Of a DNA stretch of 64,000 nt, positions 16,618 through 55,696 are shown one piece after another (the stretch's first letter is position 1; the number at the start of each line of letters is the position of its first letter). The stretch covers positions 4,358,001-4,422,000 of the forward strand of contig NZ_CP021768.1 in assembly GCF_002192255.1 (NCBI RefSeq), read 5' to 3'. The stretch comes from Stenotrophomonas sp. WZN-1 (lineage in GTDB: Bacteria; Pseudomonadota; Gammaproteobacteria; Xanthomonadales; Xanthomonadaceae). The position numbers and the translations under genes were made by a program. The notes beneath the pieces were generated by a model. The model had not been told where the DNA came from, did no database searches, and saw only the letters and a program-made list of their open reading frames with translations.

Positions 16618-16656
16618 ATAAAAAGCCCCGCTGACCAGGGGGAGGTCAACGGGGCC
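16618..16656 (-). terminator. Rho-independent terminator of the sX13-like sRNA
   Basis: On the minus strand GGCCCCGTTGACC pairs with GGTCAGCGGGGC around TCCCCCT, followed by TTTTTATTT. It is a strong intrinsic terminator and forms the 3' hairpin of the sRNA. It would also stop read-through from polA. Confidence 0.9.
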
Positions 16657-16740
16657 GGGGAACGGGCACTTGGGGAGGAGTCCCCGTTCCGAGATCTGCT
16701 CCAGGGGATGGGAGAGATCCACAACAGGCATTGCGCCTGT
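16619..16740 (-). ncRNA. sX13-like small regulatory RNA downstream of polA
   Basis: A roughly 120-nt transcript is predicted on the minus strand. A TATAAC -10 box lies at 16746-16751, six bases before A16740. The RNA then forms four hairpins in order: ACAGGC/GCCTGT (16724-16740); GATCTCTCC paired with GGAGCAGATC and a loop CATCCCCT; GGAACGGG/CCCGTTCC (16659-16690) with TCCTCCCC in its loop; and a terminator stem with a TCCCCCT loop. The C-rich loops, size and three main stem-loops are the published hallmarks of Xanthomonas sX13, a virulence-related sRNA that pairs with G-rich mRNA regions. That sX13 also lies beside polA in Xanthomonas is from memory. No strong -35 is visible. Confidence 0.78.
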
Positions 16741-25383: not shown

Positions 25384-26802
25384 TCACATCAACGCATCGG
25401 CCAGGCGTGCGATGCCCTCGCGGCTGCGCCGCCACGTGGGGCGGCTGCGCCATTGCTGCAGGTCCAGCTGCCGCGCTTCACGCAGGTAGCCGTCCTCGAT
25501 CGCACACAGCTGTTGCACCAGCGCACGGTCGTAGCAGATCAGGCCGATCTCGGCATTCAGCGCGAACGAGCGGATATCCATGTTGATCGAGCCGAGCACG
25601 GCGATGTCCTCGTCCACGCTCATGTGCTTGGCGTGCAGGAACTGCGGCTCGTACAGGGCGATGCGCACGCCGCAGCGCAGCAGCTCGTCGTAGTACGCCT
25701 CCTGCGCCCATGAGGTCAGCCGCTGGTTGTTGCTGGCCGAGAGGATCAGCTGCACCTGCACGCCGGACAACGCCGCAATGCGCAGCGCGCTCAGCGTGGC
25801 TTCGTCAGGCACGAAGTACGGGGTGACCATCACCAGCCGGCGCCGCGCCAGATGGATCAGCGCCGCCACCGCATCGCGTGCGTTGCTGTAGGGATAGGCC
25901 GGGCCGCTGGGCAGCAGCTGGGTGGCGATGTCGTCGCTGCACTCGGGCACATCGGCGATCACGTCCAGGCGCTGGCCGGTCTCCATGTACCAGTCGCTGG
26001 CAAATACGGCCTCCAGATGCGCCACCGCCGGGCCGCGCACGCGCGCCACCAGCTCGCGGTTCGGGTGTCCGGGCACGAACTGCGGGCCCGCCAGGTTCTG
26101 CGAACCGACGTAGGCCACTTCGTTGTCGATCACCGCGATCTTGCGGTGGTTGCGCAGGTCCATGCGCCCGCTGCGGCGCCAGCGCAGGCCACCGGGCAGC
26201 ATCGCACGCACTTCGATGTCGCGTGCTTCCAGGCGCTTGCGATAGGCGCGCAGGCCGCGCTTGGCACCTACCGCGTCGAGCAGCACCCGGCACTGCACGC
26301 CACGCGCCGCTGCACGCTGCAGCGCCTCGACCACCGCCTCGCCCACCGCGTCATCGAACATCAGGTAGTACAGCAGGTGCACGCGGTCTTCGGCCTGGTC
26401 GATGTCGGCGATCAGCGTGTGCAGCGATTCGTCGTAGTCGGTCAGCAGGTCCACCGCGTTGCCGTGCACCGGCATGAAGTCGCCTTGGCGCTGCACCAAC
26501 GGCACGATCTCGGCGCAGGCGGTGTCCGGCTGCGGGGCCCAGCGCAGGCGATGCTGCAGCGCCTGTTCCTCGCGGATCACCTGCGAGGCCTCGGCCTGGC
26601 GGCGGATACGCTCGCGCGACAGCCACGGGTGGCCGAACAGCAGGTACAGCGGCAGGCCCAGCAGCGGCACGAAGCCGACCAGCAGCAGCCAGCTGCGCGC
26701 CGCCCCCGGCGTGGTGCGGGTGGGGATCCAGCACAGCGCGACCAGCCGGATCAGCCAGTCGATCAGCAGCAGGTACGAACCCAGCAACCACTCGAACAGC
26801 AT
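25384..26802 (-). CDS. cls: Cardiolipin synthase (PLD family)
   Basis: A 472-residue membrane enzyme that joins two phosphatidylglycerols to make cardiolipin and glycerol. Two N-terminal transmembrane helices (about residues 4-24 and 35-58) are followed by two phospholipase D motifs: HRKIAVID in the first half and HAKHMSVD in the second. Length matches bacterial Cls enzymes. I chose the ATG at 26802 (MLFEWLLGSY) over an upstream ATG 10 codons earlier. A SMAG dimer separates it from the 82-aa gene upstream. Confidence 0.93.
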   Translation of the reverse strand: MLFEWLLGSYLLLIDWLIRLVALCWIPTRTTPGAARSWLLLVGFVPLLGLPLYLLFGHPWLSRERIRRQAEASQVIREEQALQHRLRWAPQPDTACAEIVPLVQRQGDFMPVHGNAVDLLTDYDESLHTLIADIDQAEDRVHLLYYLMFDDAVGEAVVEALQRAAARGVQCRVLLDAVGAKRGLRAYRKRLEARDIEVRAMLPGGLRWRRSGRMDLRNHRKIAVIDNEVAYVGSQNLAGPQFVPGHPNRELVARVRGPAVAHLEAVFASDWYMETGQRLDVIADVPECSDDIATQLLPSGPAYPYSNARDAVAALIHLARRRLVMVTPYFVPDEATLSALRIAALSGVQVQLILSASNNQRLTSWAQEAYYDELLRCGVRIALYEPQFLHAKHMSVDEDIAVLGSINMDIRSFALNAEIGLICYDRALVQQLCAIEDGYLREARQLDLQQWRSRPTWRRSREGIARLADALM

Positions 26803-26848
26803 CGCGTCGCCCGTCGGGAGGTGATGGGCCATTCTGCCCAGCGGCCCT

Positions 26849-26920
26849 TGTAGAGTCGAGCCGCGCTCGACGGCCTTTCGGTCCGACGGCAGAGCAGCCG
26901 AGCGTAGGCTCGGCTCTACA
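26849..26920. repeat. SMAG-type REP dimer (inverted, arms diverged)
   Basis: Outward GTAG feet bound two palindromes, TGTAGAGTCGAGCCGCGCTC and GCCGAGCGTAGGCTCGGCTC. The arms differ more than in the dimers at 20957 and 21622. It lies between cls and the 82-aa gene. Confidence 0.83.
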
Positions 26921-26927
26921 GGACGGC

Positions 26928-27176
26928 TCAATGCCGCACCAGCGCCTCGCACAGCTGCCGCACCGATTCGGCGTGACGGCGGCCGTTGAGCGCCATGCAG
27001 GCAATGGCCTGTGCGGCCCGCTCCAGCTGCGCCTCCGGCAGCGGCGACGGCGCACCGTTGGCCAGTGCCAGATGGTGGTCGCACAGCAGCAGCGCCATGC
27101 CCTCGATGCCTTGCAGCATGCGCTGCAGGCGCAGCCAGCCCAGTTCCAGGTCCTGCCGGTGTGATGGGGTGTTCAT
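26928..27176 (-). CDS. Hypothetical helical protein (82 aa) with strong RBS
   Basis: An 82-residue soluble, mostly helical protein starting MNTPSHRQDLELGWLRLQRM. It includes a Cys/His pair (LLLCDHHLAL) and two further Cys (AIACMALN, QLCEALVRH). The ATG at 27176 has a near-perfect AAGGAGGT Shine-Dalgarno, which makes translation likely and rejects the longer frame to 27251. A large structured element (27227-27390) lies 50 bases upstream in its predicted leader. Family unknown; a regulator or small binding protein is possible but unsupported. Confidence 0.7.
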   Translation of the reverse strand: MNTPSHRQDLELGWLRLQRMLQGIEGMALLLCDHHLALANGAPSPLPEAQLERAAQAIACMALNGRRHAESVRQLCEALVRH

Positions 27177-27226
27177 GCAACCTCCTTCAACGGATCTGGC
27201 CACCGTGAAGGTGGCGGACGATGCGT

Positions 27227-27390
27227 GGTTGCAATACCGGGAAGCAATCAATCAGCAAACGAACCGGCGGGCGCAAGGCCCCCTCGCACCGTCCGCCATA
27301 GAGGCGGATAGGTCACCAACCGTCGCCGGAGGGATCTCCGGCGACGGCGGGCGAGTCTACTGATTGATTGACTTCACGGGATTGCAAGCC
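27227..27390 (-). ncRNA. Candidate structured leader RNA (multi-hairpin junction)
   Basis: On the minus strand a long closing stem (GAAGTCAATCAATCAG with CTGATTGATTGCTTC, one bulged T) encloses three hairpins. They are CCGTCGCCGGAG/CTCCGGCGACGG with a 4-base loop, TCCGCC/GGCGGA with TCTAT, and GGTGCGAGG/CCTTGCGCC with GGG. An outer helix, ATTGCAA/TTGCAAT, extends the base across an internal loop. The layout resembles a riboswitch-like junction 50 bases before the RBS of the 82-aa gene. It matches no riboswitch consensus I know (not yybP, TPP, SAM, cobalamin, glycine or c-di-GMP). A MITE-like DNA element is the alternative. The strand is inferred from the downstream gene. Confidence 0.5.
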
Positions 27391-27560
27391 CGACCGCTGC
27401 AACCGCAGCGGCTCGCCATCATGGGCACGGTCACGCCCGTCGTTCCAATCGATTTGAACCGCGCGGAGCACCGGAACCGGTAGGAAGAATCATTTATCGC
27501 ATTCGGCCCTTCACACCAGGCAGGGCGCCATTGGCGACAGCCTGCGCGGGGACTGCCCCA
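27391..27560. other. Intergenic stretch with small hairpin and palindrome
   Basis: Between the structured element and the SMAG unit. It holds a hairpin CCGCTGC/GCAGCGG at about 27394-27411 and a near-palindrome TTCCAATCGATTTGAA at 27443-27458 (one mismatch), which could be an operator. A possible weak -10 (GATAAA, minus strand) lies further upstream. No ORF is credible here. Confidence 0.4.
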
Positions 27561-27587
27561 GTGCCGACCAACGGTCGGCACCCACCA
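27561..27587. repeat. SMAG-type REP monomer (variant foot)
   Basis: GTGCCGACCAACGGTCGGCA followed by CCCACCA; read on the minus strand it starts TGGTGGGTGCCGACC. The palindrome core matches other units, but the foot is GTGG rather than GTAG. Confidence 0.65.
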
Positions 27588-27627
27588 CGGCAATGCAGGA
27601 AGTACCCACTACCTGGATGCCAGACAT

Positions 27628-27657
27628 GAAAAAACCCGCCACAAGGGCGGGTTTTTT
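27628..27657 (-). terminator. Rho-independent terminator of rpmBG
   Basis: AAAAAACCCGCC, a loop ACAA, then GGGCGGGTTTTTT. It is symmetrical, so it works on both strands. It lies 26 bases after the rpmG stop. Confidence 0.93.
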
Positions 27658-27682
27658 CGCGGGGACCAGCAATCCTTGCGGA

Positions 27683-27847
27683 TTACTTGATCTTGCCTTC
27701 CTTGTACAGGACGTGCTTGCGCACGACCGGATCGTACTTCAGGAATTCCATCTTCCCCGGGGTGTTCTTCTTGTTCTTGTCGGTCGTGTAGAAGTGGCCG
27801 GTACCGGCCGAGGAAATCATACGGACCTTATCGCGCTTGCCTGCCAT
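27683..27847 (-). CDS. rpmG: 50S ribosomal protein L33
   Basis: A 54-residue basic protein, [20 protein letters not shown] then a lysine-rich stretch and [19 protein letters not shown]. It is the Cys-free (zinc-independent, C-minus) form of L33. It follows rpmB by 13 bases on the same strand, the usual rpmB-rpmG order, and is followed by a strong terminator. Confidence 0.97.
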
Positions 27848-27860
27848 GATGCTTTACTCC

Positions 27861-28097
27861 TCAGACCTTTTCGCCGCGCGCACGCAGCTCAGCCAGAACG
27901 GAATCAATGCCGTTCTTGTCGATGGTGCGCAGTGCATGCGCGGAAACACGAAGCTTGACCCAGCGGTTCTCGCTGGCCACCCAGAAACGGCGCTCGTGCA
28001 GATTCGGCAGGAAACGACGACGGGTCTTGTTGTTGGCGTGCGAGACGTTGTTACCCGTCTGCACTCGCTTGCCGGAAACCTGGCATACGCGGGACAT
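27861..28097 (-). CDS. rpmB: 50S ribosomal protein L28
   Basis: A 78-residue basic protein, [20 protein letters not shown] with the conserved [19 protein letters not shown] segment. Length is typical. It is the first gene of the rpmB-rpmG operon. A sigma-70 promoter (-35 TTGCGC, 17-base spacer, -10 CATAAT) lies at 28265-28293, giving a leader of about 160 bases. Confidence 0.98.
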
Positions 28098-55587: not shown

Positions 55588-55696
55588 GTCCCCTTGGGGA
55601 GTAGCCGGATTCCTTCGCAGGAATCGTCCACGTCAACATACTCGGCCAGTGCGCCGTGGCGTGGACAACCATGATGGTTGGCGAGACCAGCGGCCC
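55588..55696 (+). promoter_or_regulatory. yybP-ykoY (manganese) riboswitch upstream of mntP
   Basis: The conserved core of the Mn2+ aptamer is present: CTTGGGGAGTAGCC at about 55594-55607, CGTCAACATACTCGGCC near 55631-55647 and GGCGAGACCAGC near 55680. The spacing and order fit the yybP-ykoY consensus. The family senses Mn2+ and controls manganese exporters, and mntP starts 72 bases downstream. A GC-rich stretch (CGCGCGCGCAACGTC, then GGGCGCGAGCG) after the aptamer could be the expression platform. Confidence 0.92.

Follow-up and report, generated by a model that had tools for sequence, protein, structure and literature searches.

A C4-type antisense RNA module with a private address in the leader of a small Stenotrophomonas gene

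Results

The window, which is the whole 64,000-nt stretch of Stenotrophomonas sp. WZN-1 DNA that was analysed, carries on its minus strand an 82-aa gene preceded by a structured leader, and the neighbours of this unit are rpmG and a gene of the phospholipase-D family (Table 1). The initial annotation had read the frame correctly (26928-27176, stop included) and had described a large multi-hairpin structure at 27227-27390 in front of it. The structure proved to be real. When the minus strand of this segment was folded, the minimum free energy (MFE) was -103.9 kcal/mol, while shuffled sequences gave a mean of -59.2 (sd 3.7; z -12.1) and none of 200 shuffles was as good; the centroid structure agreed with the MFE structure. 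The long closing stem, the outer TTGCAA helix and the three internal hairpins drawn by eye were all found in the computed fold, and the hairpin given as 12 perfect base pairs is the strongest one (27319-27348), with 13 pairs of which the outermost is G-U and 12 are Watson-Crick. The gap of 50 bases claimed behind the element is right as the distance to the start codon (27176), but not for the ribosome-binding site AAGGAGGT (27180-27187), which lies 39 bases past the element. The unit is also larger than first drawn, as C4 extends to 27207 and a weak target-block match to 27425. A consensus scan of 26800-27900 showed no sigma-70 promoter and no terminator.

Table 1. Parts of the C4 unit, in window positions
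Feature	Position	Strand	Basis
Target block (hairpin, a1 and start of b1)	27373..27425	-	RF03163 c4-a1b1, 23.0 bits, below the cut-off of 46.7
a1 segment GGGCTTGCAATCCCG, complement of a'	27377..27391	-	fold, pairing tests
b1 segment, locus-specific address, complement of b'	27360..27375	-	fold, pairing tests
13-pair spacer hairpin separating target block and C4, not followed by a T run	27319..27348	-	fold
C4 antisense RNA	27207..27303	-	RF01695, 59.9 bits, cut-off 45; covariation
C4 stem P1, arms	about 27282-27298 and 27212-27228	-	RF01695 match
C4 stem P2	27269-27281	-	RF01695 match
C4 stem P3	27264-27268 with 27236-27240	-	RF01695 match
P3 loop, contains b'	27241..27263	-	
a' segment GTATTGCAACC	27227..27237	-	fold
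Ribosome-binding site AAGGAGGT	27180..27187	-	sequence
82-aa gene, stop included	26928..27176	-	reading frame; no family match

Several other features were noted in the window. Inverted repeats of the TGTAGAGTCGAGC/CGGCTCTACA type lie behind the 82-aa gene at 26847-26925, and we take them to resemble the GTAG/SMAG repeats of Stenotrophomonas; a similar repeat is also present at the unit-free site in genomes G017 and G005. Elsewhere, the Rfam sRNA sX13 was matched at 16619-16732 on the minus strand (124 bits), and a manganese yybP-ykoY riboswitch at 55590-55679 on the plus strand was barely above its cut-off (46.8 vs 45).

C4 antisense RNAs are best known from phages, and their function is known mainly from two of them, P1 and P7. 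In this RNA family the 5' end is made by RNase P and the product is about 77 nt long. The initial annotation had considered a new RNA and proposed a search with cmscan; this search matched a known Rfam family instead, with C4 (RF01695) well over its curated cut-off and the c4-a1b1 target block below its own (Table 1). The same kind of search in phage P1 (AF234172) gave 68.8 bits for C4 and 51.0 bits for a1b1, and in this phage a1, b1, C4, a2, b2 and icd follow one another, icd lying 50 nt past the end of C4. We named the segments after phage P1, a' being the stretch behind stem P3 and b' the P3 loop. C4 forms the 3' half of the folded element and the complements a1 and b1 lie upstream of it. 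Since the outer helix of the window fold is a1:a' and its closing stem is b1:b', the fold seen by eye is the antisense-target pairing within one uncut leader. In the predicted leader fold this pairing takes the place of C4 stem P1.

The compensatory changes that the initial annotation had asked for were present both in the C4 stems and in a1b1:a'b'. In the C4 fold, examined across 19 sequences, 96.2% of 470 cells were paired and 11 of the 26 pairs had changed on both sides, a result reached in none of 500 shuffles, and stems P1, P2 and P3 were all maintained through compensatory change. The GG at the start of stem P1 and the CCACC end are likewise present in the C4 sequences. We are highly confident that the window leader is a C4-type antisense module with a private address. 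The earlier labels of cis-regulatory RNA and sRNA were thus each partly right, as the sequence is that of an antisense RNA lying within a gene leader.

The 4.51-Mb source genome contains 15 C4 units, comprising 14 matches over the cut-off and one of 43.1 bits with the same layout; this count leaves out L035 and five weaker match places. L035 (36.5 bits) had been considered as a sixteenth unit and was rejected because, by eye, it has neither target block nor gene. In all 15 units a start codon follows C4 at 30-46 nt (three starts were set by hand). Sixty further units were taken from five genomes, namely 18 of 26 in G011, 12 of 13 in G005, 11 of 13 in G017, 13 of 18 in G021 and 6 of 6 in G035, the last belonging to another family of the order, outside Stenotrophomonas. 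When a range of 15-90 nt was examined, the start codon was found 27-47 nt behind C4 in 67 of the 69 Stenotrophomonas units, the exceptions being L095 and L121. At L095 (G011 contig 1, 3782785-3783749) the distance from C4 to the protein match is about 470 nt, compared with the usual value of about 40. Across the class, C4 was found in 24 of 369 genomes, with 1-6 copies outside the genus (11 candidates per genome were scored). In one 1.5-Mb genome, a stretch of 1.4 kb holds four head-to-tail C4 matches (G366 contig 9, 1700-3092 plus).

The gene of the window unit is present at an identity of at least 90% in 11 of 91 genus genomes, its own included; two further genomes, G086 and G099, carry lower-identity relatives, one of 51% and one of 38%. 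The interval between rpmG and the phospholipase-D gene (cls-rpmG) lacks the window unit in G017 and G005. Among 30 long frames flanking the 15 units of the source genome, 20 at 14 loci were considered; Pfam domains at E 1e-5 were found in 11 of these, with no phage structural or integrase domain among them. X-Tfes XVIPCD, AAA_13 and HNH_2 domains occur in the flanks of L031, L022 and L020, possibly by chance. The 8-mers TGTCGCAT, TCTGATTG and AAAGCGTC were found in 12, 10 and 8 of 44 upstream segments, the shuffle maximum being 6.

We then examined the products of the genes behind C4. Thirteen of the 15 are alignable paralogues (118-144 aa) that have a motif near ADGQPW, and the remaining two have 80 and 82 aa, the latter being the window gene. 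Family scans of the 15 products gave only weak single-member matches (best E 0.0048 in Pfam, 0.063 in NCBIfam and 0.0077 in PADLOC) and no PHROGs match at E 0.1; the window product (L026) had no family match in the same scans. A tblastn search with one paralogue against 50,697 phage records found no match, and a structure model of a larger paralogue (helical, mean pLDDT 69.7) had no PDB match at E 0.001 or below.

A protein search with five paralogues yielded 102 relatives, of which 80 were kept, all in Stenotrophomonas or [Pseudomonas] hibiscicola records. With a C4 model built on 19 sequences, 15 of them from the source genome, C4 was found upstream in 80 of these 80 loci, which had been located by protein alone, and in 13 of 13 loci of the 82-aa gene. 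Among 91 genus genomes the larger protein family was present in 48, and all 48 carried C4; of the rest, 9 had one or two C4 copies only and 34 had neither C4 nor protein. The copy numbers of C4 and protein were correlated (Spearman 0.95 over the 91 genomes and 0.85 among carriers), and two of the 48 carriers have 1 and 2 copies of C4 while the other 46 have 5-26. Over the whole order the protein was found in 14 of 299 genomes, 3 of which represent another genus of the same family and have weak scores. One larger-family relative (model positions 39-135) in G000 contig 1, at 2389806-2390096 on the minus strand, had no C4 match listed nearby.

In order to examine pairing specificity, a1 was located by pattern in 71 of the 75 units, and L033, L098, L105 and L124 were dropped. 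When a1b1:a'b' was scored jointly, the mean energy of cognate pairs was -37.1 kcal/mol and that of pairs permuted within genomes was -21.9 (z -21, 0 of 10,000 permutations), and in 64 of 66 Stenotrophomonas units no other C4 paired as well as the own one. In G035 this was the case in only 1 of 5 units, and 81 of 10,000 permutations were as good. The joint test was chosen after two weaker ones, in which the own C4 was best in 40 of 75 units (whole upstream region) and ranked first in 44 of 71 (b1:b' energy alone). With b1:b' alone, the observed sum was reached by no permutation in any of the five Stenotrophomonas genomes, and the own C4 was the unique best partner in only 43 of the 66 units. 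Since each unit has its own matching target address, the window unit seems to belong to a family of gene switches that carry their own address.

Comparison of orthologues revealed how these addresses change. In 69 orthologue-like pairs, defined by a protein identity of at least 70% and including some paralogues, the identity was 93% in the C4 stems and 84% in coding DNA, compared with 66% in b1 and 63% in b'. The own pairing was better than the swapped one in all 55 pairs with a b' identity below 0.8. At a limit of 80% (44 pairs, which are non-independent and in which the identities of such short segments are noisy), the 100 nt upstream were 83% identical, above b1 in 34 pairs and above b' in 29. 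At the window locus itself, where the DNA alignment took in loci L064-L075, we observed seven b1/b' alleles in groups A, B, C and D, each pairing with its own loop at -15.9 to -27.1 kcal/mol. Groups B and C bind the b' of A at about -13 kcal/mol and their own at -19 to -22, and in G071 a C-to-G change in b1 is matched by a G-to-C change in b'. To judge from these comparisons, the addresses appear to turn over fast between orthologues with their pairing kept.

A second cognate target was sought from C4 to 25 nt into the gene, and none was found (z -0.4 in 65 units; upstream control z -20.6), which makes blocking of the ribosome site as in phage P1 unlikely. At the start of the window gene, a' matches GGTTGCA over 7 bases; this match was discarded, as the orthologues G071 and G070 have C for one T there and a' is unchanged. 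A leader reading frame starting near b1 was also rejected; it was seen by eye in some units and is missing in others. The spacer lacks a run of five or more T in 62 of 65 Stenotrophomonas units, the window unit included, and such a run was seen in 5 of 6 readable units outside the two families of the order and in 6 of 6 in G035. In phage-type units (L077, L078, L079, L081, L083; L102, L108, L117; L124-L129) a T-run hairpin lies between target block and C4. The same units often contain GGCGC/GCGCC/GGCGC copies, from which two alternative hairpins could arise in an attenuator-like layout.

When ensemble energies were calculated on pseudoknot-free structures for 65 units, the in-cis pairing had a mean of -147.1 kcal/mol and the C4 stem -146.1, the former being lower in 38 units and the latter in 27. 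In the window unit the in-cis pairing is far more stable (-157.7 vs -141.9 kcal/mol), which could hinder the release of C4. The accessibility of the ribosome site was 0.30 and 0.24 in the two folds, with the C4-stem value higher in 19 of 65 units and no set direction.

Discussion

Following what is known of the C4 family, we suggest that RNase P would cut C4 out of the leader transcript, and that free C4 would then act in trans, pairing with a1b1 on transcripts freshly made from its own locus, and hold gene expression low. Because no cognate target was found by the ribosome site of the gene, we propose that the nascent leader is probably stopped or cut on C4 pairing. As long as the leader is uncut, its a1b1 can form pairs with the a'b' of the same molecule, and this excludes the full C4 fold. 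The lack of a target at the gene start and of a U-run terminator in 62 of 65 units speaks against silencing through a1b1. Silencing in trans as described is a proposal for which we see the case as evenly balanced, and the whole statement, a C4-type antisense module that silences its own locus in trans, is one that we slightly favour.

The units resemble C4 of phages P1 and P7 in the order of target block, C4 and small gene, in the P1/P2/P3 fold, and in the complementarity of a' and b' to the upstream a1 and b1. However, they differ in several respects. First, a second target (a2/b2) is missing near the ribosome site. Second, they are dispersed chromosomal units with a private address at each of many loci. 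Third, small genes without a convincing family match stand in the place of icd and ant, their products have no PHROGs match, and the neighbours of the window unit are rpmG and the phospholipase-D family gene.

Chromosomal and satellite relatives have been described as well. In the available part of PMC5320573, Group 1 of Acinetobacter baumannii comprises 21 C4-like chromosomal sRNAs, the RNAs and their processing being seen by RNA-seq. Both organisms have many such RNAs per genome (21 vs 15 here) with a variable loop, whereas that part of the paper mentions neither a cognate target within the leader nor a family of linked genes, and the units here are predicted from sequence. In the isrK-orf45 leader of Gifsy-1, an upstream segment likewise pairs with a distant downstream segment in front of a small ORF; this long-range pairing can silence the ORF, and the upstream RNA can relieve silencing in trans (PMC4825925, in part). 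We infer that the downstream RNA of that leader is C4-like, and isrK and C4 form one unit in Burkholderia cenocepacia (PMC4603805). In Gifsy-1, however, a terminator yields the short trans-acting IsrK, whereas 62 of 65 units here have no spacer T run, and the isrK model RF01394 had no match at 26900-27600 up to E 1. The CI RNA of satellite phage P4, described as a termination analogue in PMC4825925, is a processed antisense RNA that pairs with an upstream block of its own transcript. This likeness is drawn from that description, and P4 also has a downstream target, seqC, whereas none was found here. C4 predictions by Weinberg 2010 (PMC2864571) included Xanthomonadales according to the account in the available part of PMC5320573, C4 annotations exist in Xylella (PMC12189769, in part), and a P1vir study is a further C4 precedent (PMC8198154, in part). 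In the part of the literature results covered, no paper on Stenotrophomonas C4 units was recognisable by title or abstract.

Here, we need to consider that the leader may act purely in cis, which is the main rival to trans action of a processed C4. The gene would then be set by the choice between a1b1:a'b' in one molecule and the C4 fold, with no free RNA, much as in structures A and B of the Gifsy-1 isrK-orf45 leader, where the analogous pairing silences orf45 (available part of PMC4825925). The two folds are mutually exclusive and of similar mean energy (-147.1 vs -146.1 in 65 units), and address covariation fits equally, as all pairing would also be conserved under cis action. On the other hand, accessibility of the ribosome site has no consistent direction between the folds (C4-stem value higher in 19 of 65), covariation keeps a C4 fold with the features of phage P1, and the isrK system itself includes a trans-acting RNA. 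Trans specificity is also the better fit to addresses that change fast and are kept apart among the loci of a genome, though drift could suffice. We consider purely cis action a serious possibility, yet an unlikely one.

It is improbable that C4 is a stand-alone sRNA for unlinked targets, as proposed for the 21 RNAs of A. baumannii Group 1 (PMC5320573, in part), with the downstream gene incidental. The linkage to the gene in 80 of 80 and 13 of 13 loci, the start codon at 27-47 nt in 67 of 69 units and the cognate target in the same leader all argue against it. A MITE-like folded repeat placed in the leader by chance, which the initial annotation had also raised, would agree with several units per genome and with a window unit that 11 of 91 genus genomes carry (at least 90%) and that is absent at cls-rpmG in two others. 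However, the full 164-base element occurs once in the genome, with 3 partial matches of 36-71 bases; the other copies are diverged and hold their structure by compensation, and the 15 units have in common their structure and a fixed position ahead of a gene and differ by compensated changes in their addresses, so that we give this idea hardly any weight. A new ligand-binding riboswitch or other non-antisense cis-element, for which the strong fold in a leader would speak, is just as remote, since C4 is over its cut-off, no aptamer family was matched at 26900-27600 up to E 1 (in line with the initial annotation, which had recognised no riboswitch), and the paired address is the most variable part, the opposite of a conserved ligand pocket.

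The proposed trans-silencing units represent a known kind of RNA in a new arrangement, that of dispersed, privately addressed C4 units, with a multi-copy C4 precedent in Acinetobacter baumannii. P1 and P7 are heteroimmune phages. It is a tentative and rather doubtful idea that about half of the sampled Stenotrophomonas genomes have an antisense switch network with private addresses, each silencing one lineage-restricted small gene, which may serve as a strain-recognition or DNA-entry alarm. If this is true, a unit that reaches a cell lacking its address would be expressed immediately, as for phages P1 and P7, and since the turnover of the addresses exceeds that of the other parts measured in the unit, strains would differ in 'immunity type' at the same locus. 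No proven targets accompanied the publication of the multi-copy chromosomal relatives in Acinetobacter; as each copy here brings its own target and its own gene, target, specificity and turnover become readable from sequence. The units would offer dozens of natural orthogonal antisense pairs and a handle on unannotated protein families, and would allow a direct test of whether an RNA for phage immunity has been co-opted to control genes or to recognise strains.
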